From the NCBI GenBank assembly GCA_008330645.1, contig VLTN01000003.1, positions 434,001-498,000 of the forward strand: 64,000 nucleotides of DNA, written 5' to 3'. The position numbers and the translations under genes were made by a program. Source of the DNA: Cafeteria roenbergensis (lineage: Eukaryota; Sar; Bigyra; Bicosoecida; Cafeteriaceae). The notes under the pieces are model-generated. The model saw only the letters and a list, made by a program, of their open reading frames with translations, did not search any database and was not told where the DNA came from. The number at the start of each line of letters is the position of its first letter. The stretch's first letter is position 1. Shown in pieces: positions 10,487 through 45,700 of this stretch.

Positions 10487-13400
10487 TCACTCGGTGATGG
10501 ACTTCTTCATGAAGTTGAGGGCGGAGCCGGCCTTGAACCACTCGAGCTGCTCCTCGTTGAAGGTGTGCTCAAGCTCCACCTCGAAGGACTCGCCCTCCTG
10601 GGGGGTCACGACCATGGTCACGTTCTTGCCCGGGGCAAGGTCGGCGAGACCGACAATGTCCACGCGGTCGGTGCCGGTGATGCGGTCGTAGTCGGCCGGG
10701 TCGGCGAAGGTGAGCGGGAGCATGCCCTGCTTCTTGAGGTTGGTCTCGTGGATGCGCGCGAAGGAGCGCACGATGATGGCGCGGCCGCCAAGGAAGCGCG
10801 GCTCGAGCGCGGCGTGCTCCCGGGAAGAGCCCTCGCCGTAGTTCTCGTCGCCGATCACGACCCATCCGATGCCGGCGTCGCGGTAGGCAGCCGCCACGGC
10901 GGGCACCTCTCCCCACTCCTTGGTGTCAAGGTTCTGCACGCAGTTGGTCTCGCCAGTCTCGGCGTTGATGGCGCCGATGAGCATGTTGTTGGAGATGTTC
11001 TGCAGGTGGCCGCGGTACTTGAGCCAGGGGCCGGCCATGGAGATGTGGTCGGTGGTGCACTTGCCCTTGGCCTTGATGAGCACGGGCATGCCCTTGTAGT
11101 CCTCGCCGTCCCACGCCGAGAAGGGGGTCAGGAGCTGGAGGCGGTCGGACTTGGGGTCGACGGCCACCTCGACGGCGGAGCCGTCGGCGGGGGGGGCCTG
11201 GAAGGTGTCCTCGCCGTGGTCGAAGCCGGCCTTGGGGAGCTGGTCGCCGAAGGGAGCGGTGAAGCGGAACTCGCTGCCGTCCTCAAGGGTGAGGGCGTCC
11301 GTCATCGGGTTGAAGTCCAGGGTGCCGGTGAACGCGAAGATGGTGGCCATCTCCGGGGAGGTGACGAAGCAGTGGGTGGCGGGGTTGCCGTCGTTGCGCT
11401 TGGCGAAGTTGCGGTTGTACGAGGTGACGATGGTGTTGGCCTCGCCCATGTCCTTGTCGTGGCGGTTCCACTGGCCGATGCAGGGGCCGCAGGCGTTGGC
11501 GAGGACGGTGGCGCCGGCCTCGGAGAAGGTCTTGGCGAGACCGTCGCGAGTGATGGTGGCGCGCACCTGCTCGGAGCCGGGGGTGACCATGAAGGGGGTC
11601 TTGAACTTGAGGCCGGCGGCGAGAGCCTGGCGGGTCAGGTCGGCGCAGCGGGAGAGGTCCTCGTAAGAGGAGTTGGTGCAGGAGCCGATGAGGCCGGCGG
11701 ACACCTCGACGGGCCAGCCGTTCGCGACCGCGCGCTCGCCAAGCTGGTCCACGGGGTGGGCAAGGTCCGGGGTGAAGGGGCCGTTGACGTGCGGGACAAG
11801 GGTGTCGAGGTCGATCTCGATGATGCGGTCGTACTCGGCGCCCTCGTCGGCGCGGAGGTTGTCGCGGAAGCCATCAGCGGCCTTGGCGATGCCCTCACGG
11901 CCGGTGGCGCGCAGGTAGTCGCCCATGCGCTCGTTGTACGGGAAGGTGGAGCAAGTGGCTCCGATCTCGGCGCCCATGTTGCAGATGGTGCCCATGCCGG
12001 TGCAGGAGATGGAGTCCACGCCCGGGCCGAAGTACTCGACGATGGCGCCAGTGCCGCCCTTCACGGTGAGGATGTCGGCCACCTTGAGGATGATGTCCTT
12101 GGGGGAGGTCCAGCCCGAGAGGGACCCGGTGAGGTGCACGCCGATCACCTTGGGGCACTTGAGCTCCCAGGCGAGGCCGGCCATCACGTCCACGGCGTCG
12201 GCGCCGCCAACACCCACGGCGCACATGCCAAGGCCGCCCGCGTTGGGGGTGTGGGAGTCGGTGCCGATCATGAGGCCTCCCGGGAAGGCGTAGTTCTCGA
12301 GCACAATCTGGTGGATGATGCCGGAGCCCGGGCGCCAGAAGCCGATGCCGAACTTGGCGCCGGCGGTGGCGAGGAAGTCGTACACCTCGCGGTTGAGGTC
12401 CTTGGCGGCCTTCATGTCGGCGTCCGCGCCGTTCTCGGCGGCGATGAGATGGTCGCAGTGGATGGTGGACGGGGCGGCGACCTTGGGGAGGCCGGAGGAG
12501 ATGAACTGGAGCACCGCCATCTGGGCGGTGGCATCCTGCATGGCCACGCGATCCGGGCGCAGCTTGAGGTAGGTCTCGCCGCGCACAGGGTTGCTGGCGG
12601 GGTCCTCGAGGTGGCCGTACACGATCTTCTCGGAGAGGGTGAGGGGGCGGCCGAGGCTCTTGCGGGCGATCTGCGCACGGGGCAGGGGGTAGGGGGCGGG
12701 GAGAAGGAGGGCGGGACAAGGGGGTGGTTGCGGAGTCGCACACCGCGCCCGAGCGTCGCAGGCGGGCAGGCGAGCGCGGGCGGGGGAAAACTTGCGATCG
12801 CTGGCAGAGTCGGCGCCCAATCTCTCTGCCAGTGCCCGAAGCGGAACAAACCTCAACGAGCGCGCCCCGGCGCTGTGGCCGTGCTGGGCCCTCGAAGACC
12901 CGGGCCCGACCCCTGGCGGGAGCCTCCGCGTCTCACCTCGATGTTGGCGCCCATCTTGGCGTAGGTCTCCTCGATGGTGGGGCTGCCGGCAGGGTCCAGA
13001 ACGCTCAGGGGCGTGGAGCTCATCTGCCGGGTCGCGCGGCGCGCGGCCTGCGGGGAGCCGGAGGCGCGGACACGAGGTCGAGAGCAGGGCGCGGAGGTGG
13101 AGGCGAGGCCGGGCGCTCGCCAGGGCGGGAGAGGGGCGCTGGGGGGCGCGGCCCGAGCAGCGGGAGGGCGAAGGAGCTGCCGGGCGGCGGCGGACCAGGC
13201 CTGGAGCCAAACCGGAAGTCGGAGGCCTTTGCGGGCACCGCGCGCGCCCACTGGCCCGGCGGCTGGTTCCCTCGCGCCTGCCATGCTCGGAGGGCCATCG
13301 CGGGCCGCGCCGGGCGCGAGCAAGGTGCGCGGGGCGCGGCGCGGCGCGTGGCCGGGCCCGGAGCCGCAGCCCGTCAGCTCGCCAGAGGTGCCGAAGCCAT

Positions 13401-13519
13401 TGCGCCAGACGCCGGCAAGCTCCGGCGGCCGCTCGCGCGGGCCGAGCGCGCGCGGGCGCGCCCCTCCTGCGGCAGGAAGCACTCACCCGGGAGGCCGTGG
13501 CGGACACGCGGGACAGCAT
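10487..13519 (-). CDS. ACO2: Aconitate hydratase, mitochondrial
   Basis: Exons 13519-13487, 13023-12937 and 12670-10487 give 767 residues (human ACO2 is 780). The enzyme interconverts citrate and isocitrate in the TCA cycle using a [4Fe-4S] cluster. Cluster cysteines are in [13 protein letters not shown] and [11 protein letters not shown]. Other family blocks are [68 protein letters not shown] and [14 protein letters not shown]. The tiny first exon encodes [11 protein letters not shown] and the second begins [13 protein letters not shown], together a plausible mitochondrial presequence. Joining without exon 1 would start at the Met of exon 2 and lose part of it. Introns are 463 and 266 bp with GTGAGT and GTGAGA donors. 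The start faces the trehalose-phosphate synthase-like gene at 183 bp. Confidence 0.96.
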
Positions 13520-13702: not shown

Positions 13703-16700
13703 ATGGCCGCGCCCGCAACCGCGTTGTGAGCCGCCTGCTGCGCCCCAGCGCCGCCCACGCCAGCGCGGCTGGCCGCCGCGCGGCTGGGCGGCATCGCGTG
13801 CGCGCGCTCCCCAAGCGTCCGCTGCCGGCTCCAGCCCCTGCGCTGGTCGCCCCGGCACCGCCCCGCCCCGGTGGCGAACTGCTTCGCGCAGCTGCGGGCT
13901 CCACCCCTCTCGCGCTCTGGGCGTGGCCCTGCTCGCTCCCGCTCGCAGCTTGACTTTGCAGGTGTCGGCAACAGTGCACATGGGCGAAGCCGTGTACCTG
14001 ACCGGCGCCGCCCCCTCCATGGGGTCGTGGGACCTCAGCTCGGCAGTGCAACTGGTGACCACACCCGAACGGTGAGCCGCCGCTGCGCCGCCGGGGCTCG
14101 CTGCGGGCCCTGGCGCGCGGACCGCCTGCACGCCGGCGAACGCGACGGATGCCCCAGCGCCCGCTGCAGCTGCTGCTGCCATTGGTGCTACTGCTGCTGC
14201 TTCTGCTCTGTCCGGCCAACACTCCCCCCCTCCACCTGCGCCTTCCGAGGGGCCCGCACCTGCGCGCGTGCGGAGGCTGCTTCTGGGGCTGTCCCGCTGC
14301 GCGTGGGCCTGTTGCGCTGTCATCGGCCTCTGGCCCGGCGCGTCCCTGAGCCCGGCGGACCCCAAAGGAAACTCGCGCCCGCGGCGACAAGTTCCACCTG
14401 CCTCGTGGCTGCCCCTCGCCCGGGCTTTCGCCCCGCCCCTCGCGCAGGTTCCCCGTGTGGTACACCCCAACGCCACTGCCCGTGCCAGCTCGGAAGCGGG
14501 TCGAGTACAAGTACATGATTTACAGCGGCGGGCGATTCCAGCGGTGGGAGAACCTTGACGGCAACCGCGTCACCGCAGAAGCGCCGGACGCGGGATCGAC
14601 GGCCGCTCAGCCGCTGGACACGCTCGACGTGGCCCCTGGTGCCGCTGCCCCCGGTGCGGCCGCGGCGACGGCTGCACCGGGCCAGGCCGCGGGTCCTAGC
14701 GCGATCCCCGCCGCGGCTGCCCCTGCGCCAGCGCAGGCCGCCGAGCCGCCCCAGCCGCTTGCCGCCCCAGCCTCGCGTAGTGGGAGCCCGGCGACGAGCC
14801 CCCGCATCAGCGGGCCGCGGAGCGGCCACAGCGCCACCGGCCCGGACGGCCAGTCTGCCACCGGCGGCGACCCTGGCCCTGGCGCGCATGACCACCGCCG
14901 CTCCAGGTTTGAGCTCGCCCGCAACGACGGGGTCATTATCTGCTGCCTGCGCCTCCCCGCGCGGGTCCGGCGTGACGCCAGCACTGGCAAGTGGACGGCC
15001 TCGTGGGACCCGGAGCACCTCCTCGCCCGCAAGCGCGCCTCCTTCGCAGACGCCCTTCGCGTGCTGTACGTCGGGCTGGCCGTGGCAGACGAGGCCATCC
15101 TCCCGTCCGACCAGGCGGAGGTGGAGGCCGTGCTTGCCCAGTTCCACTGCTGCCCCGTCTTCGTCAACCCGTCGACTCGCCGCCAGTTCGAGCGCGGCTT
15201 CTGCCGCGACACCCTTTGGGGGGTGATGCACAACGTGGTCGACGTCTTTGGGCGTCGTCCCACGCGCTGGTGGACGCGCGACAACCAGGAGGACCGCTGG
15301 CAGGCCTACTCCGTGGTGAACCAGGCTTTCACTGACAAGGTCGTACAGCGCTACAGCGAGGGCGACCTGGTGTGGGCGCACGGCCACCACCTCCTGCTCA
15401 TGCCCCAGTTCATCGCGCGCCGCATCCGCAAGGCCACCCCCTCCGTGGGGCTCTTCCTCCACGCCCCGTTCCCCTCCTCGGAGATCTTCCGCTCCTTGTC
15501 CTGCCGCCAGGACCTCCTCCGGGGCATGCTCCTCTCCGGCCAGCTCGGCTTCCACCTCTTCGAGTACGCCCGCCACTTCTCCACCTCCTGCCGGCGCATC
15601 CTCTCGCTCCACGAGTCCGACGACGCCGGCGAACGCGACCGCGGCCACCCCGGATCCCAGATCATCGAGTACCAGGGCCGCAACGTCTCCCTCACCGTGT
15701 CCCACGCCGGAATCGAGCCCTCCGTCTTCGCCCGCGACGTCCGCTCCGCAACCGCGCGACGCGAGTCGGCCCAGCTGCGGGCGATCCTTGTTGACCGGGA
15801 CCTCGACGAGCTCGCCCGCGCGCGCCGCATGATGCCCCACCCCCCCGAGGAGGTGTGCTCGCGAGCGGTCGCCGCCAAGGCGCGGGAGGTCGCGCAGGCC
15901 GCCGATGCCCTCTCCTACGGCGCCATTTCCAGGTCAGACGACGTCCCGCTCATGGCCGCCGTCCTCGCCGCCCTGCCGGCATCCCCCGGCCCGGCCGTTG
16001 CCTTGCCGGTGGGGCCCGACGGAAGGCACCCCGCGCACGACCCCCGGTCTCGCCGCGCCCCTGCATGGGGCCCTCTGCCCCGCGCTGCCGCCGCAAGGCC
16101 CGCCGCCGCCGCCGCCGCCGGGGAGGGGGGCGCGTCCGGCGCGCCGCTGGCGGGCGAGGCTTGCCCCGCCCCCGATGGCGCGTGGCAGCCTGCCAAGGAG
16201 GCCGCCGCCGACCCCTGGGCCGACGGCAAGCGCCGCCTGGCCGTGGGCGTGGAGACCCTCTCGCGGCTGGACGCAATCCCCCTCAAGCTCTGCGCGTGGG
16301 AAGCCCTGCTCCGCCGCTGCCCGCACTGGGTCGGCCGCGTGGCGCTGGTGCAAGTTTGCGTCGCCGACGCGGACGCTGCCGAGGAGAGCGACGCTGTGCT
16401 CTCCGAAGCCCGCCACATCGCCGCCCGGACCAACGCCTCCTACAGCGTCGGGTCGGACGGCCGCTCCTTCCCGCCCGTCATCCTCATCGAGCGATCGGCC
16501 CCGCTGCCGGCCCGCTCTCGTGCCGCGCTCTTCGCTGCCGCCGACGTCCTCGTCTCCCTCCCCCTGCGGGCCGGGTTCGTGTCCGCGCCCCTGGAGTACG
16601 TGTGGGCGGCTGCCCCCGAGGGCAGGGGCGCCTACTCTCCCGCGGGCGTGGACCCGTGCCTCGTTCAGGGGCCCGACGGCCGCCTGCCTCTTCCGGCGGA

Positions 16701-19700
16701 GCTTGACACTCTCCGGGGGGGGCGCCCCGGCGTGGCCGTGCTGTCCGAGTTCATGGCCGGCTCCCGCGTCCTCTGCGGCGCGCTGCGAGTGAACCCTTGG
16801 AAGACCGAGGAGGTGGTGGCCGCCATCGCCATTGCGCTCGGGATGCCGGGGTCGGAGCGCGTGGCTCGCTGGGAGTCCTCTGCCAGCTTCGTGGGCAACT
16901 GCTCCACTGCCGACTGGGCGGAGCGCGTTCTCACGGACCTGAAGCGCAACGCCTCGGCGGTGGGCCGCCGGGCCGTCGTCACCATGGGGCTCGGGTACAC
17001 CTACCGAAACGTCAACTTTGGCAGCAAGTTCCGCAAGCTGCAGACCGGAAACGTGCTCCGGGCCTTCCGCCACTCGCACCGCCGCGTCATTTTCACCGAC
17101 TACGGAGGCACCCTCCACACGCGAGACGTGGCCGAGGCGCGCCGCCGCGCCCTCGCTCGCGGCAAGCTCCTCGGCCGCGACGACGCGCCCCCCATCACCC
17201 CGGAGACGTTCGCGGCCCTGAAGCAGCTCAGCGCCGACCCGCGCACGGTGGTCTTCGTCATCTCCGGGAAGGAGCGTCACGTGCTGGACAAGGCGTTCGA
17301 GGACCTCCCTGACGTGGGCCTCGCTGCGGAGCACGGCTTCTTCTTCAGGTGGCCGGCCAAGCTGAGCGCCAGGGCCGCCGCTGGCCAGTCGGGCCGCTGG
17401 CACCGCCTCATAAGCCGGTTCGACGACAGCTGGCTGGACCTTGCGCTCTCCATCATGGAGCTCTACACGGCTCGAACGAACGGCACCTTCATCCTGCGCA
17501 AGGGCTCTGCGATCGCGTGGCACTTTGGCGACGCCGACGCGGAGTTCGGCTCCATGCAGGCCAAGGAGCTCAAGGACCACCTGGGCGGCGTCATGGGCAC
17601 CATGCCCGTGGAGGTGGTGTCGGGGCTCAACTACATCGAGGTCCGCCCGCGCGACGTCCACAAGGGGGCCATCGCCATCCACGTGCTGAGCCGTCTCGAG
17701 CGGGTGCTGGGCGGGGCTGGCGATCGCTCCGCCTTCGCGCCCGGCGACTTTGGGTCTGCGAGCGGTGGCGGGGCGCTTCCGTCCCCGGCCCCGGCGTCGA
17801 TTTCGGGCATGTCGTTTCCTCGCAAGTCCACGTCACGCGGCCTCTTTGGGGTCAACACTGGGCCCGCGCCCTCCACGCCCATGTCTGGCGGCTCCACCGG
17901 AACCCTGGGAACCCTGCCCATCATGGACGAGGGGGGCCGCGGCGACGACGCCCCCGCCGGGCACGCAATGCCGGCTGAGACGAGCCTTGGCCCGCCCCGC
18001 GCGAGCACCCTCCACCACGGCCAGCGGGTGGCCTCCGCGGCCAGCCGCCTCGCCACCTCGGTGGACTCGCCGTCGCTGCCCCACGCAGTCGCGGGGGGCT
18101 CTGGCGCGGCTTGGGGACAGGACGACAGCAGCCTGGGCAACCGCGGCGACGCCGCCTCGCGCCGCCCCGAGCTGTACCGCGGGGCGAGCGACGGGTCAGC
18201 CTGGCCTGGAGACGCGACCCGTCCTCGCGGTCGCAGCTCTGCCAGCTCTACCGGCTTCATGGTGGGCGAGCGCTTCTTCCCGCAGCGTGGGACCAACGCT
18301 CCCGTGGCTGCCTCCTCCCGGGACGCGCCCCCTCCCTCGCCCTTCGTTGGCGCCATGTCCTCCAGCTTCCTCTCGGGCGCCGCGCCCATGATGTCGCCCC
18401 ACATGGGTCCGCAGCCGACGCCGCTGCTCGGGGCGTCCACGACCCAGTACCGCCGAAGTGGCCCGGGCAGCGCCGGCAGCTCCGGCTGCCTGGACGGGGC
18501 GGATCCGGGCCACATCAGCCGCGCGCGTGCTGCCGTGTCCGGGTCCGCAGGCGACCAGGCATCGGCGGCAGGAGCATCGGCCGGGGCGGAGGTCCCCGCA
18601 GCTGCAGCGGGAGCAGGGGGCGACGGTCAGCAGGGCGCCCCAGCCGGGGGCGGGACGGCTGGCAGGCAAGCGCCGTCGGGCCGCGTGATTGACTTTGTCC
18701 TCGCTGCAGGCGACGACACCTCCGACGAGCTCATGTTCACCGCGCTCAACGATTGGCGACGGTGGGGAGACGGGAACGGGCACCACGCCGTGGTGGCCAG
18801 AGGCCTGTCGGAACCCCCGCGCTCGCTCGAGCAACCCCGTGCCGACGGTGCCGCCGGGCCCACCGCCCCCGCCTCGCGGCACGCCCACCTCGGGCATGTG
18901 GAAATGGCCCGCCGCGCAGTGTCGACGCAAGCGGGCGCTCCCGTCGGGCGCGGCCCGGGCGGCGCCCGCCCCGCTGCGGATGCCACCCCCGCGGCCAAGT
19001 CCTCGACCCACCACCGCAGCGTGTTCACTATCACTGTGGGCCAGAAGCCGTCCCGCGCGCACACCTTCGTGGACGACACCCAGGCCGTGGAGGACCTCTA
19101 CACCGCCCTCGCCCGCCTGTCGGCGCGGTCCGCGCCAAACCGCTCCATGGTCGACCTTCGCGCGGCCGGGACGGCCTCCAGGCGCGGCAGGCCCTCGGTG
19201 GCCCTGCACCACAGCCCTCAGTCGCCCCCGCTGCAGCACCACACCAGCCCGGCCGGCCTGGACCTCGGCCTTGGCGTCGGCAGCGACGCCGCTGCCGCCG
19301 GCGCGGGCCCGTCGCTGCCCGGCCAAATGGTGCTCACCGCCTGGCCGGACCGCCGCGTCCGCTCCAACAGCGCGGCCTCCTCGGAGAGCGCGTCCTCCCT
19401 CCACAACGCCGCCGTGGCGGGAGCGCTGCTCGTGTCGGACCGCCACGCCGGCTCCTACACTGCCTCTGGCCTTGCCCTCCCGGCCTCCTCTCCCCCTGCT
19501 CCCAACATGGACGCCGCCGACCGCTCTCGCAGCGTGGTGGACATGTCCCTCGGCCTCTTCACGCACAGCTCTGCCCCCCACAGCGGCGCCAGCACGCCCA
19601 TGCTCCCGCCGCTCGGGCGCTCGTCGGCGGACCAGTCCCCTCTGCTCCAGTCCCTGCGCCAGCACGCGTCCACGGGCGCGACGCCCTTCCCCGACGCGTC

Positions 19701-20139
19701 GTCTGGCGGCACGGGCATGCCCCGTGACGACGCCGGCGCCAGACTGGGCGCCGGGGGCGCGGGCATGGGCTCGACTGCGGCCACGCCCCCCGAGGCACCC
19801 TGGGACAGGCCATCGAGCGGGTCCACAACGCCCGTTTCGTCCGGCATGCAGTGGCTCTCGCAGGTGGCGCTCACGGCCGGCATCGGCGTGCCCCACTCAG
19901 GCCAGCCCTCGGCGGCAGCAACGCCCGCGGACGCGGACGCGGCTCCGGGCTCCAGACCGGGCTGGGCCAGCGCCCCAAGACACGCCTCGGCCATCGCGCG
20001 GCCCGCCTCCCATGTGCAGATGGAGGACGGCCGTCGCCGCGGGCACGCTGCCGCGATGCCCCGCTCCCTGAGCGGCAACATCCAGAGCTACTTTCGCTCG
20101 GTGGAGGCCCAGCCCGAGGACGAGCCGATGGAGTTTTGA
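13703..20139 (+). CDS. CBM20-GT20-TPP trehalose-6-phosphate synthase/phosphatase-like protein, probably catalytically inactive
   Basis: Exons 13703-13725, 13949-14071 and 14448-20139 give 1945 residues. Residues 1-100 are a CBM20 starch-binding domain ([40 protein letters not shown]). A GT20 synthase domain follows at about 200-830 ([30 protein letters not shown] with H387). A HAD-type phosphatase domain begins near 925 and its last motif ([12 protein letters not shown]) is at about 1468-1479. Key residues are lost. The UDP-sugar Arg/Lys loop (VERLDYxKG in active enzymes, VDDMDIFKG in plant class II) reads [10 protein letters not shown] at 650. The DGMNLV motif reads RAGFVSA at 756. The HAD motif DxDxT reads DYGGT at 933, losing the second Asp. 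A roughly 380-residue Ser/Pro/Ala-rich insertion splits the phosphatase domain, and a disordered tail of about 450 residues follows. A glucan-sensing regulatory role is an inference. Confidence 0.88.
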
Positions 20140-20669: not shown

Positions 20670-21657
20670 ATGCTCGTCGTGTGCCTCGAGGGCTGCCACG
20701 GGTCAGGAAAGACGGAGCTTTGCCGCAGCTTCGCAGAGAGCGGCTTCACGGTCCTGGACGAGGTGAGCCGAGGCGCGGGGTCCGCGCTCAAACGGCGCCG
20801 CTTTGCCCGCCACGGCCAGCAGTTGCAGCTCTGCCCAACGGCGTGGCCGAACTCGCCCCTGTGCTCGACCGCAGGCGTTTATGGACATGCCTGCGTACGC
20901 GCTGCACCCCCAGAGCCTGCTGATGGAGACCATGTGGGCGACGCAGTGGTTCCGCCACGTTCTGGAGAAGGCATCCAAGCTCGCACCCGAGGAGCGGTCT
21001 CGCGCCGTGTTTGTTGCCGACAGGAGCCCGTTCTCGGCGGTTTTCTACTCGCGCCGGGACGGTGCGTTGCTTGAGCCGGTTATCCGGTCGCAGATCGGCG
21101 AGATTGCCGAGGAGGCGGGCATCCACATCATCACGGCCCACCTGGCGGTGGACCCCGAGTTGCTGTGGTCGCGCATCCAAAGTCGCCTCAAGCTGGAGCC
21201 GTTCCGAGTCAAGTACCGCGAGGGCGAGCGCGAGTGGATGGACACCACGCAGTCGTGGTACAACGGCTTTGACTGGGACGTGACCATCGACAACGGGTCC
21301 CAGAGCATCGCCGAGCTGCTCGACCTCGCTGTGGAGGCCATTCGGGAGGCCTCCCCGCACGCGCGCCGCCTCCTCGACGCGGCGAGCATCAGCGTGGGAT
21401 CTGGGAGCCCTGCCTCGAGCGTGCGCGGCCCGGACGGCGCGTTTGAGGCCTCGGGAGCGTGCGAGGTCTCCTGCGCTGCGGCGGCGCACAACGTGACGCC
21501 TGTGAAGCGGCCAGCGGCGCAGCGCGGCGGCAGCAGCGGCTCCCAGACCCCCAGCGGGCGGGACTCCCCGGCGTCCATGGGCCACGCCGCCGCGTCGGAG
21601 CACGCCATCGACTTCGACTTGGCGGCCACGGCCGAGGACTTCGAGGGGGCGCACTGA
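20670..21657 (+). CDS. P-loop nucleoside/nucleotide-kinase-like protein
   Basis: Exons 20670-20762 and 20875-21657 give 291 residues. The protein opens with a Walker A loop (LEGCHGSGKTELC, residues 7-19). It then has FVADRSPFSAVFYSRR, comparable to the DRS/ERS motif of deoxynucleoside and thymidylate kinases. IHIITAHLAVDPELLWSRIQ and an Arg-rich lid-like stretch (RLKLEPFRVKYREGEREW) follow. This order fits a dNK/thymidylate-kinase-like phosphotransferase that salvages a nucleoside or nucleotide, but I cannot assign a substrate. The last 80 residues are Ser/Ala/Gly-rich and probably disordered, ending in an acidic DFDLAATAEDFEG. The intron is 112 bp with a GTGAGC donor and lies right after the P-loop helix, in phase 0. 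Confidence 0.6.
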
Positions 21658-24137: not shown

Positions 24138-27100
24138 TCAGTGCCGCGCTCGCTTTGCTTGAGACCCACCGCTGAACTGCGCCTCCTCCTCCTCCTCCTC
24201 CTCGCTGGCGAGGTCGAGAACATCCGAGTTCGTGGTGCACGCTTGCTGGACACCTGAGCGCTCCGGTGCTGCCGGTCCCGCTGGAGGCAGCGCCTCGCAG
24301 GCTGCTCGCATGAGGCCAGCATCTGAAGCCCGGCCCTCCCACCTCGGCGCGGGCGGGCCCGCCCACGGGATGGAGAGGGAGAGCCTGGCCTCAGACGAGC
24401 CGCCCACAGCCGTGAGCATGTGGAGAGCCAGGTCCAGGCGCCGCCGCCTCACCTCCAGCTGGTCCAGCGCCAGCCGGCCCTCCAGCGGCCAGGCTTGTCT
24501 GTGGCGGCGCGCGCGGAGCGAGAATAGGGAGGCGGGGGTGGAGAACTCGGGCGGCAGGAGCGGAGGGGAAGGAGCTTGGCTGCCGCCGAGAGACGCCTGG
24601 CCGCCCGGAGACGCTTCTGCCTTTGGCAATGAGGCACTGCCTGCCGCTGCGCCCGAACCCGCAGCGTCGCAGTCCGGAGGGGATGCGACTGGGGTCGGCT
24701 TGGGAGCGTCGGCCCAGCTTCCCAGCACCGCCAGCATCGCACGCCCAAAGGCCGCGGCGAAGACACCGCAGTCGCAGCTGTTGTCCTGAGTGGGGACTCT
24801 CAGCCCGATGTGCGGGACCAGGGGGCGGCCGTTGCACGTGCGGCCGCGCTGCAGCGCGACAAGCGCCCCCGCCTCGGCCTCGTGCTCGGTGCTGATGGCC
24901 CGATTGCTGCTCACGCCCCTCCCGCGGAGCAACGAGTAGCCGCTGCCTCGGCGCCGCTCCCATTCCCTCACCAGCCAGTGGCGCACTGCAGCCGCGCACT
25001 TGGCCGTGTCGTGGGCCCTGAGGGAGTCGCAGTGGACGATGCAGCACTCCGCCGCCGTCGCGTCGTCCTCGCGCCACCCGAGGCAGCCTGCCGCGGCCGC
25101 CTCGAGCTCCTCCATCCCCACCAGCGACAGCGGGGACACGCACGGCGCCGAGCCACGGCCTGATCCGGAGCTGCTCCTGCCGCTCTTGCGCGACCCGCCC
25201 GACAGCGGAGACGCTAGCGCAGCCGCGGACTCAGCCGACGCCCCTGAGCTGACTGAAGCGCGCCGGCCCTGGGGCGGGGTTCCCGCGGCTGGTTCGCACT
25301 CGCGGGCGGCGCCCGCAGCAGACGTGGCCGTTGGGGCCGCGCCAGAGCCGTCGTCTGAGCCATCAAGGTCGATGGTGGACTCCGCGGCCGCGCTCGCTTC
25401 AGCGCTCGCGCTGCTTGCACTGCGAGCGCTGCCCGAGCCGCTCCCCGTCTGCCTCCGCCTGACGGAAACGCGCGCCCTGGGTGCATGCTGCGGCGCCACC
25501 CTGACGCTGGGCAGGCGGCCCAGCAGCGGAGCGAAGTGCATTGGATCCGAAGTGTCGACCCCCAGCTGCGCCGCGCGAGCACGCACCAGCTCTGCCGCGG
25601 CCTCGGGGTCGGCGCCGCGCTGGACCATTGTGGCCTCGGCATCGGCAAGCCCCGCCCGGACGGGGTCCACCACGGAGGCCATGGCCCGAAAGCGCCTCGC
25701 TGCCGCCGCGGGGTTGATCACGGCGATGAGCGACCAGTGCCCCCGGCTGTGCACCGGCACGAGCAGCAGCGTCTTGGAGAAGACGTCGGCGCGCTTGGTC
25801 CAGCGCCGCACCCTGTCGTAGTCCGCGGCGAGGGCGGCCAGAGCGACGTCGGACCGGGACGACAGCCTGGAGAAGAACACTGTGGACATTACGTGGGCGA
25901 GAGCGCGGGCCCGGGGACCGAGCTGGAGGCGCTCCGTCAGCCGGATGGCCATCTCCACCGCGTTGTCGTTTAGCCACTCCCCGGGGCGGAGCCTGCCCAG
26001 GTCGCTGGCCCGGAGGAGGAGGGCCCCGCTTGCTCCGCGCAGCCCGGCCGGCAGAGCGGCAGCGCTCGGTCCGCCCCCGCCGCCAGCGCGCGAGCCCTTT
26101 GCGGCGCTCGTGCCGCCGTCCTCGCTGTCGCAGTCGCTAGAGTCGTCCAGAACCACGTCCGCCTGCGAGCTGGGCAGAGCGGGGGAGTCCTCCGTCGGAC
26201 CAGCTTCTGGCTGCTCAGACGTCGCCGCCTGCGCTGCTGGGACTGCGGCAGCAGCCGCCTCCGGCTGTTCCACCGGCGCCAGCTCCACGGGCCACAGGCC
26301 AATCGGAGTCGCGGCATCGCCTCCCCCTTGAGCGGCTCTGCCAGATGCCGCCGAGAGCGCGGCGGCGGGGAGCGACGGCAGCGAGTCAGCGAGCGATCGC
26401 AAGCACATCAGCTCCGTGTCGACCCAGTCTTCTGTGGTGGTTGTGGCGTCCCACCCGCCGTCGCTGAGCAGGCCAGACGCTCTCGTCGCCGCCCGGCGCG
26501 GCGTCGCGCGCTGCCAGGGAGCGTGAAGGCCTGGCACGCGCCAGTCCGAGCGCTGCCGCGAAGCCTGCCGCGATGGGAGCGCAGACCGGGACGAGGATGC
26601 GCTGGACGGGGAGGCGGCCGGCCGCTGGCTGGGGTGGTCCCACTGGGGCGCCTGCGCCGGCAGCGGCTGTGAGGGCCACAGCGAGTGCGGCGCCGTCGTC
26701 ACAGCGTCGCCGGCACGCGCTCCCGCAGCCTCCGGCTGCCTGCCTGGCTGTGCCGGGGTGGTGCCGCTGCCCTCAGCTGTGCTGCTGCCGGCCCCCCACA
26801 GGCTGGCCACCGCGCTGGTCACGCCCTTGAGCAAGTTCAGACCCGCCGTGGCAGTCCAGCTGTTGGCCGAGCCGTCGCGATGGCCCTCGGCAGCAGCAGG
26901 CTCGCCTGCGCGCGGGGACAGCGGAGGGGGAGCTGCGGCCCTGGTCATGTGGCGGGTCCTGAACGCCGCGGCCGCTGGCAGCCCCCGGAGGACTGGCTTG
27001 GCAAGTCCCAGGCCGGCCTTCACGGCAGCGGCGGCGATTTCAGGCCGGGTCGGTGCTGGAGCCGGGCCACGGCGCGGTAGCGGCAAAAGCGCCCGCCCAG

Positions 27101-27630
27101 AGGTCAGGCTGGTGTGGGGGGGCGTTCGTGCAGGGAGGCGCTTTCGCCTCGCCTGGCTCTGAAGGCACTCCGTTGCCGCGAGGGAGACGAACTGCAGCAG
27201 GGCTTGCGTGTCCTTCGACTGGGCTGTCCACGTCAGTCTTGGGCCATCAGGAGGCTTGCTAGCCACGTTCAAGACCATGGCTGGTCCTCGCTCGGTGTCT
27301 GTGAGCTTTTGGCCCTGCCCCTCCACGGAAAGCAGCGACGTCCGAATCGGCGCGCTTCCCGGCTCGTCTGGCTGGAATTCCAGCGCGACCCACTCTCCTC
27401 CTCGTAAAATCTGCACGGGAGTCAGCCAGGGGTCTCGGGGGCGCGCTTGGCCAGCATGAGGCATGGCCGAGCCGACGTGGGGCAGTGCTGTGCCTCCGCG
27501 CCGCGACACAACTCACTGACAGGTCTCCAGGCACAGGGGAGGCACTTCCGCGCACCAGGACGACGTGCGTCGGGGGCGCAGTCGGCACCAGGCCGTCGCT
27601 CCGGGGCGCCGGGCCGGCCATGGCATCCAT
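24138..27630 (-). CDS. SUMO-specific cysteine protease, Ulp2/SENP6-7 type
   Basis: Exons 27630-27517 and 27410-24138 give 1128 residues. C48 proteases remove SUMO from targets or trim poly-SUMO chains, mainly in the nucleus. The catalytic set is complete: PGEWLNDNAVEMAI, His in LVPVHSRGHWSLIAVIN (about 596), Asp in CIVHCDSLRAHD (about 831), and Gln and Cys in VPTQDNSCDCGVFAAAFG (about 917). About 200 residues of Ser/Ala-rich sequence separate the His and Asp blocks. Split catalytic domains of this kind are typical of Ulp2/SENP6/SENP7, not Ulp1/SENP1. The N-terminal 130 residues (LRGGEWVALEFQPDEPGS, LTWTAQSKDTQALLQFVSLA) resemble a PH-like fold. The intron has a CTGAC branch-like element 14 bases before its GTGCAG acceptor. 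Exon 1 is placed by phase and donor quality; without it the start would be 27464. Confidence 0.85.
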
Positions 27631-39200: not shown

Positions 39201-39488
39201 CTGGCGTCCGTCCCGCCGCGGGCCGGCAGCGCGGCTCCACCGGGCGCCCGGGGCGGTACGCCGCGCGGCCTCGCAGAGCAGTCCGCGGGCGAGCGCATGC
39301 CGCGGCAGGTCAGGGGCGGGCGAGGGGCCGGCGCCCAGCAGCCGGGGTTGGCACCGCCCGACTGGCTTGGCCTCGGAAACTGCCGAAGCCGCCGGGCTCA
39401 CCTTCACAACGTCGGTGTGCAGGCGGGTGGGGCGCATGCGCAGGGTGAGGTCTGACGCGGGCCTGTGAAGCCTCGCGGCCGCCGCCAT
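36237..39488 (-). CDS. Dual-specificity protein phosphatase, possibly YVH1/DUSP12-like with a split zinc-binding region
   Basis: Exons 39488-39402, 39097-39015, 38850-38677 and 38205-36237 give 770 residues. Dual-specificity phosphatases remove phosphate from Tyr and Ser/Thr. Residues 30-170 form the catalytic domain: VKVIPGLFVGSQHAAYNSEA, GITHVCSLNG, VELRDADGSDL (general-acid Asp region) and the active site VHCTQGWSRSPAVVAAYL with Cys115 and Arg121. Then ARVRAERHMANPNPGFVSQL closes the fold. The catalytic Cys codon is itself split by the last intron (TG|C). Beyond it lie CAAC (301-304) and, 400 residues later, CVESGPF and CGSCSAVVG (about 698-726). These resemble the Cys pairs of the YVH1 C-terminal zinc domain, separated by a Ser/Ala/acidic insertion; that reading is inference. 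All four exons fit in phase. Confidence 0.8.
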
Positions 39489-39738
39489 GCAGGCTGCAGC
39501 TGCCAGCGACCTGCTGGTTGCGTGCGAGCACCTGGCCTGTCATCATCGTTGCCGGCGGGGCCGGGCGCTCTGCTCGAGCCAGCTGCCGGCCAGTCCGGCA
39601 GAGCGCGCGCGCCAGGCGTGCGGAGGCGCGAGGATCGGGCCCAAACGCGCCGGACACGCGCCTTCCGGAGCGGAGGGCGAGCGGCCGGCACGCCGACGCA
39701 CCGCTCGGTGCGCGCACCTTGGGCTGCGGACCGGAGCC
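39489..39738. promoter_or_regulatory. Bidirectional promoter region, phosphatase and TPR
   Basis: 250 bases between the phosphatase ATG and the preferred TPR ATG. A CATG at 39486-39489 supplies a start codon on both strands. The + strand one (39487) is in frame with TPR without a stop, so an alternative longer TPR start cannot be excluded. Confidence 0.45.
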
Positions 39739-42700
39739 ATGGCCGCAGACCTCGATGAGGGGCAGCTTCGGGAGCGGCTGGCGGCCAAGGAAGACGAGGT
39801 CTCCCGCTTTGAGATGCAAATGGGCGAGCTCGAGGCCCGCTTCGTGGAGGTGACCACGCAGCTGGACGCGACCACCAAGGCCAGGTCCATTGCCGAGGCT
39901 GACGCCGAGGCCCAGCGTGAGGCCCGCGCGAGCGCGCCCAATCGCCGTTGGCTTGCCTGCGCTCGTTGCCCCCCACTGCACGCCCTGCTGGGGCGCATCC
40001 CGCGGAGCCCGGCCGGGGCCGACCGGCCAGAGCGTCTGGCTGCCGGTTCCGAACGCGGCTGGAAGGGGGAGGGGGGAGGAGGTGACGCGCTCCGCAGCCT
40101 GGCAGCAGGCCCGCGCTGCTGCGCAGCTCGCGCGCTCGCAAGCTCGTTTCCGAGCGCCCTGGTCGCTGGCCCACGCCGACGACTGAGGCGCTGGCCAAAC
40201 CCATGCCCACTGGCGACGAACAGGCCGGCAGTGGGGGCGGGGAGCGCCGCGCCTCTGTCCGGTGCCCGCGGCTTGCGCCTGTGGCCGGAGCCAGGCATGG
40301 CAGCGGGCTTTCCGCCGCCCCTGCGCGGGGTGCTGGTGCTGCTGGTGCTGCTGGTGCTGCTGGCCGCCAGGGCGCTCGTGCGACCCGTTGCCTGCCGCGT
40401 CCTGTGCCGTTGTTTTCGTCTGCCCGCAGGCGAGCGCGCGGCGTCGTCCCGCCAGCGCACAGAGGAGGCCGAAGCCGCACTCGAGGCGGAGCGCGCAAAG
40501 CTTCAGGCCGAGCGCAGCGCCCGGAGAGCGGCCGAAGAGCAGGCCGCAGTCGCCGTGCGCAGCCAGGAGCTGCAGCGCGAGGAGCTGCAGCGCCTCCGGG
40601 AGGACGTCGCGGCCCGTGGCCATCGCCTCGAGGAGGCGGCTGACGCGCAGGCGGCCCTGGAGCGCGAGCTCGCCGAGATTCGCGCGACCCGCCTCCCCAC
40701 GCAGCAGCGGGCGGAGCGGGCCGAAGCCCAGTGCGCTCTCCTCGAGGAGCGGCTCAACACCAGCAAGCGCGAGGCCGCCGCTTGCCGCGCGGACGCCGAC
40801 ACTGTCCGCAACACAACGGGCGCAGCGGTTCGCCAGGCGCGTGCGGAGCTCGCGGAGGCGAGAGACGCGGTGGCAGCTGCCGAGGGCCGCGCTCGGTCCC
40901 TTGCGTCCCGCCTCGAGGACGCCGAGGCCGCCGCTGAGGACCTCCAGGCCCGCCTTCGCGACGCCCGCGTGTCTGGCGCAGAGCGCGAGGCCGCCCTCGA
41001 GAAGACCGCGGCCCAGGCCAAGCGCGTGGCAGAGCTTGAGAGGAACGCCGCCGCCGCGGCTGCGGAGCGCGTCGAGTCCCTCGAGGGGCTCCTCGCCGAG
41101 GCCAGGGAGCAGGCCGCGGCGTCGGCACGGCGGGCAGTCGAAGAGGCAGAGGCTGCCCGCCGGGAGGCCGCTCTGGCGCAGCAGCAGCTCCGTGCCCAGG
41201 CCGCCTCGGCCGTGGCCGAGCGCGACGCCGCACGACGCGAGGCCGACGACCTCGCTGCCAAGCTTCGCGCCGCGGTGTCCGGCAGCGGCGCCGCCCGCGG
41301 CGGCACGGTCGCAGCTGGCAGCAGCGCGACTGGTCTCCCCTCCGCGGGCCCGACGGCCAACGCCGGCTCGCCCAAGTCCGAGGAGGACGACGACGACATC
41401 GCGCGCAGGGACCCCGCCGTGGCCCTGGCGCTGGAGCGTCGTCGCTCGCAGCAGCTCACCCTCATGGTGGAGGCCATCACCGCGGACCTCGCCGCTCGCG
41501 CCCCCCTCGTGGAGAAGCAGCACAAGGCGTACGAGGACATGGTGGCCCACACTCACACCCTCTCGAGCAGGATGCAGGAGGCCGTCACGGCCCGGGCGGC
41601 GGCCGACAAGGCCGCGGCAGAGGCGCGGGCGGAAGCAGAGCGCGCGCGCAAGGCAATCGTCGTCCTGCGCCGCGAGACTGCCGACCAGGCAGCCCAGCTC
41701 GCCGCGCTCCTCCGCCAGGACATCCAGCGCGCCTCAGGCGGCCAGCTCCCGGCCTCCTCCTCGGCCGGCGCGGCTGCCCTCGACATCCCCGACGCTGAGT
41801 CGCTCACCACCGCCGACGGCCTGCGCCGCGCAGCGGAGTCGCTCGTGGCCGCCCACGGCGAGGACGAGGACGAGGACGAGGACGCAGACATGGACGACGG
41901 CGACGCTGCCGGGCCCGACGTCATCAGCGCCGCGCTGGTGCGCTTCGACGGCGTGGGCGGCCTGCTCCGCCGCAACCGCCTCCTCCTCCGCGTCACCCGC
42001 CAGCTTGTGGACCGCCTCACCGACACCGAGGCCCAGCGCGCCGCCGCGGCCGAGTCCGAGGCGGCGTCCCTCCTCGCAGGGGCGATGGACGAGCTGCAGT
42101 CCCAGCGCGAGTGGAGGCAGAAGCAGGACCGCCTCGTGGCCGCCCTCACGCGGCAGGTGGAGGCCTACAAGGGCCTCGTCTCGGGGGGCGCCATGGGCAC
42201 CTTGCCCGCCTCAAGCACCGGCGCCTCGGCCGCCGCGCAGGAAGCCTCCTCCCTTGCGGCCGCGGCGCGCGACGAAGTAGACGAGTCCGCGGCCGAGGCC
42301 GCAGAGGCCGCCCGCAAGGAGACCGAGGCCCTCCGCTCGCTGCTGCACTCGGAGCGCGAGCGCGCCTCGGAGCGCCTCCGCGAGGCCGAGGCGCACTCTG
42401 CCGCCGCCCGGGAGGACGTGCGCGCCCTGCGGGTGCGCCTGGCCAGAGCCGAGTTCGACGCGGAGAGCGCCACGCAGCGGCTCGAGGCCGCCCGCCGTCG
42501 CGAGTCCGAGCTCCAGGGGCAAGCGGAGGTGGAGCGGGAGGGGGCCGCGAGGGCCCGCGAGCTCATGGTGGAGCAGCAGCGCCAGGCGGCCGAGCGCGAC
42601 GCCGAGCTCAACGCCATCCGCCGCGAGTCCATGGAAGCCGCGGCCAAGGTCGCAGCGCTCGAGGCGGAGCAGCTGTCGTGGGTCCGGGCAGAGGAGTCGC

Positions 42701-45700
42701 TGCGGGACGCCCTTCGTCGCGCGGAGGGCGAGCGCGACCGCCTGGCCGCCATGACCGACACCGTCCGCCGGCTCGAGGCCACCATGGCCAGCGAGCACGA
42801 GGGCCGCATGGCCAACGTCGCGTCGGAGCGGGACCGCCTCCGCCGCGAGTGGCTCGAGGAGCGGAAGGCCCGAGAGCACGACCGCGCCGAGGCAGAGCGC
42901 AGCGCCGCAGCCGCGGCAGCCGAGGCCCGCGCCGCGACGCGCAAGGCGGACGAGCTCACGGCCGAGCTGGAGCGCGTCCGCACGGAGCTCGCGGGAGCGC
43001 GAGCCAGGCTCGCGGAGGCAGCCGCGGAGGAGGGGCGCTCGGCTGCAGCGGCCGCGCAGTCTGCCCCCGACGCCAGCGTCGCCACGGCGGCGCCCGCCAC
43101 GTCGTCCTCGTCCTCCTCTTCGTCGTCCTCCTCGTCTTCCTCCTCGTCCGCGCCTGGAGCGGCCGCGACCGGGTCCCCGGCGCTGTCCGCGGCGTCCGGC
43201 TCTCCGCCCGGCACGTCCCGCTCCGCGGGCGACCAGCAAGCTGTCGCCTCCCTCGGCCTCCGTGTTGCGTCCTTGCAGGCGGAGCTCGAGTCTGCCCGCG
43301 CGCTCGCCGACGAGCAGGCCCGCTCCGCGGAGGAGTACAAGGCGCTGGCTGACGCGGCGGAGGGCGAGGCTGCCGCGCTGCGCGCCCGCCTCGAGGCCCT
43401 GGAGGAGGAGCGCGCCGCCGCCGAGAAGCGCGTGGAGGAGGAGAAGGAGGCCCGAGCGGCCGCCATCGAGGGCCTGCGCGGCGAGATGCGCCGCGTGCGG
43501 GAGCACGCCGATGACGCCGTCGAGGCAGCCAAGGCCGCCGAGCGCGCTGCCAGGGAGGACGCACGCACCGTGCGCCTCGACCTCGCGGAGGCCCAAGCCG
43601 TCGCGGAGGGGATCGAGGCCCGCGAGCGCGCTCTCAAGGAGGCCACCGAAGAGCGCGAGGCGGCCAGGGCAGCGGTCCAGGCATCGTACGACTCCCTGGT
43701 GCAGCTGCACGCCGATGACGGCCGCCGCATGCAGGAGGCAGTCCGCCTCGGCAAGGCGGCCAAGGAGGAGGCGGACACCCTGCGCCGCCGCGTGGAGGCT
43801 GCCGAGCGCTCCGCCGCGGAGAAGCTCCGTGCGGCAAATGCAGCTTCGGCCGCGGCACGCGCGGAGGCCGAGGCGGCCCGCCGAGCCGTGGAGGCGGCGG
43901 AGGCGCACTCCAAGCGCCTCGAAGCACAGGTGGAGAGCCTCACGGCCACGGTGGACGCCGCCAACTCCACCATCGACCGCCTCCGCGCCGGCGAGCAGAC
44001 CTCGTCCGGGGCATCCGGCACTGACGGCGCGGGCGAAGCTGCTGCGGCAGCGGAGGACGCGTCTTCCGCGCTCCGCCGCGCCCTCGTAGACGCCCAGGAG
44101 ATGGTCCGCCACTGGCGCCGCGAGGCGGAGCTCGAGCGCAGCCGTTCGGATCTCGCTCGCTCCGAGTTCGAGGCCGCCAAGGAGAAGGCTGACTCGCTGG
44201 AGCGCCGCTACCGCGCCGCCGTCGCGGAGGCAGCTGCCGCCAACGCCCGCGCCGCTCGCGCAACCGGAACGGGGCCTTCCGCCGCGGACAAGGCGGCTGC
44301 AGCCAGCGCCGCCGGGAAGTCCTCCTCGTCCTCGTCCTCGTCCTCGTCTTCGTCCTCCGCTGCGGGGGCTGCGGACGGATCGGCAGCCTCTGCAGACGGC
44401 GACGACGCCTCCTTCGACGGCAGCCTGGGCGCCCGCCTGCGCAGCGTTGCGCGTGAGCTCGCCGTGACCCGGGACAGCAACGACCTCCTCCGCGACGCCG
44501 CCCAGGCGAAGGATAACCAGATCCGCGCACTTCGCGCGGAGCTGGCCGAGGCCAAGGAGGCCACCGCCCCGCTCCGCAAGGAGCTCGCTGCCGCCAAGGC
44601 CGACTTGGCCGTGGCCCAGGAGGAGAGCGCCTCCCGCGCGCAGCTGGTCGAGACGTACAAGCAGCGGCTTGAGCGCCTCCTCACCACGCACGGCTCCGGC
44701 TCGGTGGACAAGGAGACCCACCTGGCCGTGCTCGCTCAGGTGGACGACCTGCAGCGCAAGCTGGAGGCAGCCACCGCAGCCGCGGCTGCTGCGGAGGCCA
44801 AGGCTGCGGAGGCGGCGAAGCGCGCCGACTCCGCCGCCGCCGCGGGCTCGAGCACAGTCAGCACCATCGCCGAGCTGGAGGCCAAGCTTGCCGCCGCGGC
44901 GGCCGAGAAGGAGGAGGCCGACGACCGCTCGCTCAAGTTGCGCAACGCAGCCCTGCGCGCCAACGCCCGCTCCAAGGACCTGGCACAGGAGCTGAAGGAA
45001 GCCAAGGCCCGCGCCGCCGCCGCGGAGGGCTCGCTGACCGAGGCGCAGGCCAGGGCGGCCGCCGCCGAGGAGAGAGCCGAGGAGTCCGGCCGACGGGCGG
45101 CTGCCGCCGCCGAAGCGGAGGCGCTGGCCAAGGCCCGCGCCGCCGTGGCGTTGAAGAGTGCCGGCTCCGCCTCCGCCGCATCCGCGCCGCGCCCTGCCAA
45201 GCGCCGGCTCGAGGACGTCGACGCGGAGCCCGGAGGCAAGGGTGCTGCTTCGGCCGCAGCCGGAGCATCTGGGCTCACCCCCTCCTCTGGCTCCGCTAGC
45301 GCGTCCGCAAAGCGGCGCAAGGTTGGCGCTGGCGACGCGGCTGGTTCCGATGACGAGCAAGTGGACGGGGGCGCCGAATCCGAAGCGGAGGTGGAAGCAA
45401 CGCCGAGCGCCACGACGCCGCATCCCGCAGCAACTTCCACCGGTACCGCCGCCCTCGGCATTCCTGACACTATTGAGAACCCATTCGCGGGAGTGCTTTC
45501 CATGGCGTCGCCTGGCACAGAGCCGCCCCGCTTCGGGGACGGCTCCTCCACAATCCCTGTGCCGGGACCCTCCCCCGACCGGACGCTGGTCCCCAAGCCC
45601 GAGGGCGGCACCCTCTCTCTCCTCGCGGCGCTCGGTTCTGCCAGTTCTGCTGTGGACGGCTTGAGCTCTGCCCCTGCGGCTCCGTTCAGCGACGCGTTCG

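Follow-up and report, generated by a model that had tools for sequence, protein, structure and literature searches.

A CBM20-TPS-TPP protein of Cafeteria roenbergensis with replaced catalytic residues in both enzyme domains

In Cafeteria roenbergensis, a 64,000-nucleotide stretch of contig VLTN01000003.1 (positions 434,001 to 498,000, here called the window) contains a gene for an unusually long protein with the domains of a trehalose-6-phosphate synthase (TPS, family GT20) and a trehalose-6-phosphate phosphatase (TPP), preceded by a CBM20 starch-binding domain. The locus raises the question of whether such a protein is still an enzyme of trehalose metabolism, an enzyme with another product, or a protein in which the enzyme folds serve a different purpose.

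Gene structure and domain organisation

The computed gene model has three exons on the + strand, with two GT-AG introns and a 1945-residue product that ends at a single terminal stop. Exon 1 (13703..13725) begins with an ATG within GCCATGG and covers MAAPATA plus an incomplete codon, which is joined in phase 2 across intron 1 (13726..13948, gtgagc...gctcgcag) to exon 2 (13949..14071), where the first half of the CBM20 domain is encoded. Intron 2 (14072..14447, gtgagc...cgcgcag) is without a coding frame preference, and both introns are defined by splice sites and reading frame. Exon 3 (14448..20139), to which an uninterrupted plus-strand ORF of 1894 aa (14455-20139) belongs, encodes the end of the CBM20 domain, a linker, the GT20 and TPP domains and a C-terminal tail up to the stop codon.

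The CBM20-GT20-TPP architecture, described as intact in a first-pass annotation made from the sequence alone, was recovered in that order by Pfam matches to CBM_20, GT20 and Trehalose_PPase. The GT20 domain, insert 1 included, extends over 14917..16974 (+ strand, E 4e-86), and the HAD phosphatase-like TPP domain, inserts 2 and 3 included, over 16990..19134 (+ strand, E 5e-39). The spliced CBM20 domain matches both Pfam CBM_20 (E 7e-16) and the starch-binding domain of glucoamylase (1ac0, E 2e-8); the exon join restores the complete domain, which supports the gene model. In the alignment with 1ac0, the established glucan-contact positions W, W, K and W are kept. A tether to alpha-glucan is predicted from these intact positions, and is supported by them.

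The window has a GC content of 68-76% per 4 kb, similar to the 70-71% reported for Cafeteria, a bicosoecid (PMC6972860), and has roughly one gene in every 4 kb. Neither Rfam families nor tRNAs were found in it. An aconitase-like gene with introns, mitochondrial-type by its reading, is located on the opposite strand (10487-13519) and is divergent from the CBM20-TPS-TPP gene. The two start codons, of which the aconitase-like one is putative, are separated by 183 bases, and a two-way promoter in common is possible. On the 3' side, the segment 20670-21657 (+) reads MLVVCLEGCHGSGKTELCRSF, a kinase-like start with a P-loop, and the ORF 20767-21654 has no Pfam match. The window also contains a large ORF on the - strand (24138-27509) with a Ulp1-type C48 protease domain (4.8e-16) and an ORF of 2582 aa on the + strand (39469-47214) with a weak match to nucleoprotein TPR-like (1.4e-7).

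Residues replaced and retained in the two enzyme halves

We compared the protein to 84 bacterial TPS-TPP fusions (80 from GTDB genomes and 4 from plasmids), in which 121 columns are conserved at a level of at least 95%. These fusions served as the yardstick; no close relatives were identified when IMG/VR and the GTDB genomes were queried with the window protein, and the few relatives on viral contigs were uninformative. Synthase residues are numbered as in OtsA, via the Salmonella OtsA protein in locus L005, the numbering of which equals the published E. coli numbering past the N-terminal loop. The 14 ligand columns are those of the known synthase ligand contacts.

In the synthase half, 10 of the 14 near-invariant ligand columns are replaced. 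Nine of these changes are D130 to G, Y76 to E, R262 to T, K267 to D, R300 to A, D361 to A, M363 to F, N364 to V and L365 to S; G22 is also replaced, although less certainly, since its region is gapped in the alignment. Only R9, W85, H154 and E369 are retained. The Gly at D130 (15382..15384, + strand, codon GGC in the segment WAHGHHL) takes the place of an Asp that is found in all 84 fusions. In the UDP-sugar loop (16249..16278, + strand), an Arg present in 84/84 and a Lys present in 83/84 of the fusions have been exchanged for Thr and Asp. Further downstream, RAGFVSAP (16567..16590, + strand) replaces RDGMNLVA, of which the D, M, N and L each occur in 84/84. The loop is free of gaps in both the MAFFT and the HMMER alignments, and DGMNL is aligned to AGFVS. 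As a GT20 protein, it thus has the sequence family and the GT-B fold, while R262, K267, D361, N364 and L365 are T, D, A, V and S.

An alternative register that places SRLD onto DRLD was considered and rejected. It costs an insertion and a deletion of three residues each, was chosen by neither MAFFT nor HMMER, and would still be without K267. In the structural model, a strand ends at T601 and a helix begins near I608. This fits the ungapped register, although the alignment behind the model already favours it.

The ligand columns are lost at a somewhat higher rate than the other conserved synthase columns, of which 31 of 75 are lost and 44 kept, but the enrichment is only marginal (Fisher p 0.046). 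The erosion is more pronounced on the donor side, with 16/41 columns kept in this half as compared to 32/48 in the acceptor-side half (p 0.011). An active fungal Tps1 (6jbi) retains 69 of the 80 conserved synthase columns that it covers, as compared to 43 in the window protein, and distance alone can thus not explain the losses.

The phosphatase half is far better preserved, with 27/32 conserved columns kept as compared to 48/89 in the synthase half (p 0.003). The five losses comprise motif I's second Asp, the Arg of SGR (to Lys), two cap residues (E to L and R to G) and one Leu. Motif I reads DYGGT (17098..17112, + strand, GAC TAC GGA GGC ACC), in which the nucleophile Asp is kept and the acid/base Asp is replaced by Gly; the DxDGT signature of HAD-type TPP enzymes, with both Asp residues, is therefore absent. 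The nucleophile is accompanied by motif II (S937), motif III (K1070; both in P0001 numbering) and an intact motif IV, GDDTSDE, which was located by alignment (18709..18729, + strand).

The motif I change is informative in the light of a nematode enzyme. In the TPP of Brugia malayi, Asp215 is the general acid/base and its main-chain oxygen helps to hold Mg, and the D215A mutant has a kcat of about 0.0004 per s as compared to 24 per s for the unmutated enzyme, a reduction of about 60,000-fold (PMC4081830). By analogy, with a Gly at this position the metal site would be expected to be kept and turnover to be lost. The two missing cap residues suggest that trehalose-6-phosphate (T6P) binding may also be gone, and argue against tight binding of T6P.

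The individual observations of the first-pass annotation hold up in these alignments: the UDP-sugar loop without its Arg and Lys, RAGF in place of DGMN, DYGGT in place of DxDxT with the second Asp missing, and the persistence of other scaffold motifs, such as HAPFPSSE and GDDTSDE. The alignments add the changes at D130, Y76, R300 and G22 in the synthase half, and SGK for SGR and the two cap residues in the phosphatase half.

Could these changes be artefacts of a real enzyme that was misassembled, misread or mis-spliced? The sequence comes from a single record, but many different codons are affected, several of which need two or three substitutions, and they are located in an open frame with gap-free flanks in the alignment. 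At motif I D+2, R262 and K267, the replacements require two base changes each from any parent codon (as from either Asp codon to GGA), so that a single read error is unlikely at these sites. We consider an assembly or gene-model error to be highly improbable. The many missing residues could also be those of a functionless, decaying pseudogene. However, the 5.7-kb ORF is uninterrupted, the domain parts have a GC3 of 0.90-0.93, the splice sites are clean and the CBM20 domain is intact. Given the open frame and the well-preserved phosphatase half, functionless decay is quite unlikely.

Predicted folds, inserts and a possible regulatory role

AlphaFold2 models were built from alignments with bacterial TPS/TPP relatives. 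The GT20 model (pTM 0.75) matches Candida albicans Tps1 (5hut, Z 33.9, rmsd 2.2, 465 aligned residues), and also the N-terminal domain of C. albicans Tps2 (5dxf, Z 31.2), where a TPS fold forms part of a phosphatase. Unlike the presumably non-catalytic window protein, Tps2 is a trehalose-6-phosphate phosphatase, with its catalytic domain at the C-terminal end. To this catalytic domain (5dxi), the TPP model, the cores of which are confident, is matched with Z 32.5 over 279 residues. Since the alignments consisted of TPS/TPP proteins, agreement in fold is partly expected, and indicates compatibility more than it provides independent proof. It had been proposed that the fold is kept while the chemistry is probably gone, with modelling as a check; the models do fit the TPS and TPP folds, and residue alignment, fold matching and published mutants agree with this proposal for both domains.

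The domains are interrupted by three inserts and followed by a tail, all on the + strand. Insert 1 (15805..16227, 141 aa), which is an alignment gap, is located ahead of the UDP-sugar loop, with frame 0 preferred and a GC3 of 0.89. Insert 2 (17698..18678, 327 aa), between motifs III and IV, is disordered, with pLDDT values mostly below 50 and frame 0 preferred. Insert 3 (18805..19014, about 70 aa) is of low complexity, with low pLDDT, and corresponds to an alignment gap. The C-terminal tail (19135..20136, 334 aa) is of low complexity and rich in Ser, with frame 0 preferred and a GC3 of 0.89.

In the inserts and the tail, the frame of the gene is the best of six on codon usage (GC3 0.83-0.89), and no such preferred frame was found in intron 2 and the upstream region. 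The possibility that the inserts are unspliced introns was rejected on this in-frame codon bias, which is absent from intron 2. The first-pass annotation had referred to long Ser/Pro insertions; long inserts are indeed present, and these are rich in Ala and Gly as well as in Ser and Pro (Ala/Gly/Ser/Pro 20/13/13/11%). Based on frame preference, GC3, composition and the low pLDDT of insert 2, the inserts and the tail are most likely translated, disordered segments.

Most phosphorylation motifs occur in the inserts about as often as expected by chance (e.g., 11 RxxS motifs as compared to 8.2 expected), and no 14-3-3 mode 1 sites were found there. Strict AMPK/SnRK1-type motifs in insert 2 (17698-18678) and the tail (19135-20136) number 3, as compared to 0.35 expected by shuffling, and at least 3 were obtained in 3/500 shuffles; as several motifs were tried, this excess is only a lead.

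Taken together, the pseudoenzyme reading is well supported by the aligned residues, and the protein is probably best explained as a non-catalytic, glucan-bound regulator among CBM20-TPS-TPP proteins, with the regulatory role as an inference. Such a protein would neither make nor hydrolyse T6P at a useful rate. The CBM20 domain would tether it to alpha-glucan, the GT20 and TPP folds could provide a platform for protein binding, and the disordered inserts would be likely targets for phosphorylation, with the outcome that storage-glucan or trehalose metabolism is adjusted. Given that the phosphatase half is far better preserved than the synthase half and lacks one residue critical for turnover, binding of a sugar phosphate may persist there, with the protein serving as a sensor. 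Signalling may go through protein contacts, as with the fungal subunits, or through a sugar phosphate caught in the phosphatase pocket. In a more specific and rather doubtful version, the CBM20 domain would anchor a sensor in which the phosphatase pocket traps T6P or a similar ester unhydrolysed, and the inserts would relay the signal.

T6P sensing and the role of inactive TPS proteins are open questions in plants. If a glucan-bound regulator is the correct reading, this would suggest that dead TPS-TPP proteins serve in regulation more widely than known, with a direct tie to storage glucan. The case also cautions that domain content alone is no basis for the annotation of CBM20-TPS-TPP genes as trehalose synthases.

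Comparison with known systems

CBM20-TPS-TPP proteins are known from red algae, diatoms and brown algae (PMC6642608). Two of these, PhTPS4 from Pyropia and Gasu_10960 from Galdieria, have the same domain order as the window protein and produce isofloridoside phosphate; PhTPS4 is active in spite of the replacement of R262 by D and G22 by K (PMC6642608). The window protein could accordingly be an active (iso)floridoside-phosphate synthase/phosphatase or another heteroside enzyme, in which the replacements would be due to another donor or acceptor and the CBM20 domain would set the enzyme on storage glucan; (iso)floridoside metabolism has also been studied in a chrysophyte stramenopile (PMC8703398). 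The activity of PhTPS4 shows that loss of R262 alone is insufficient to call a pseudoenzyme, and it is the additional losses that tip the balance. PhTPS4, which has 1008 aa as compared to 1945, has D130, H154, D361, N364, L365 and E369 intact (PMC6642608), of which only H154 and E369 remain in the window protein, and K267 and R300 are gone too. The phosphatase half that would match such a synthase has, in addition, lost its acid/base Asp. With losses that go beyond those of PhTPS4, an active heteroside synthase is unlikely.

In Toxoplasma gondii, the CBM20-TPS-TPP protein TGGT1_297720 has two phosphosites, both outside the enzymatic domains, and a change at S1073 altered amylopectin accumulation (PMC11414933). 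The likeness to the window protein considered here is one of architecture. TGGT1_297720 was proposed by its authors to be bifunctional (PMC11414933).

The loss of catalytic residues in both domains has its counterpart in the fungal proteins Tsl1/Tps3 and TslA/TslB, in which the TPS and TPP folds are present and the catalytic residues of both are missing (PMC5405227). Trehalose levels still fall when TslA or Tsl1 is lost, and TslA has an additional effect on a chitin synthase (PMC5405227). In a more restricted form of the regulator explanation, the window protein would be the functional equivalent of Tsl1/Tps3, i.e., a regulatory subunit that binds to and tunes an active TPS/TPP complex and itself senses no ligand. 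Both domains are degenerate as in TslA/TslB, and the TPP model fits the pseudo-TPP C-terminal domain of the trehalose synthase regulatory protein from C. albicans (5hus, Z 25.2, 261 aligned residues). A CBM20 domain has, however, not been described in the fungal subunits, of which the A. fumigatus proteins have 918-919 aa. We regard this equivalence as possible, but hold it tentatively.

The plant class II proteins (TPS5-11) are fused TPS-TPP proteins in which the Arg of the UDPG pocket is replaced and TPS activity is absent (PMC4203130, PMC9569751). In maize, they mostly have three to four substitutions at the UDPG/G6P site, with Asp at R262, and the phosphatase domains are mostly kept (PMC4203130). 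The window protein shares the replacement of R262, in this case by Thr, but differs from class II proteins, with mostly intact phosphatase boxes and no described CBM20 domain, in its broken motif I. Its initial description as more degenerate than plant class II TPS is borne out by the 10/14 replaced ligand columns and the broken motif I, as compared to the mostly three to four substitutions in maize. In published trees, fused proteins from alveolates, stramenopiles and red algae adjoin plant class II (PMC2935371), and the CBM20 proteins are placed near class II.

Each of these features is thus already known separately, and what is new, as read from the aligned residues, is the combination of a CBM20 glucan-binding domain with apparent loss in both enzyme domains.
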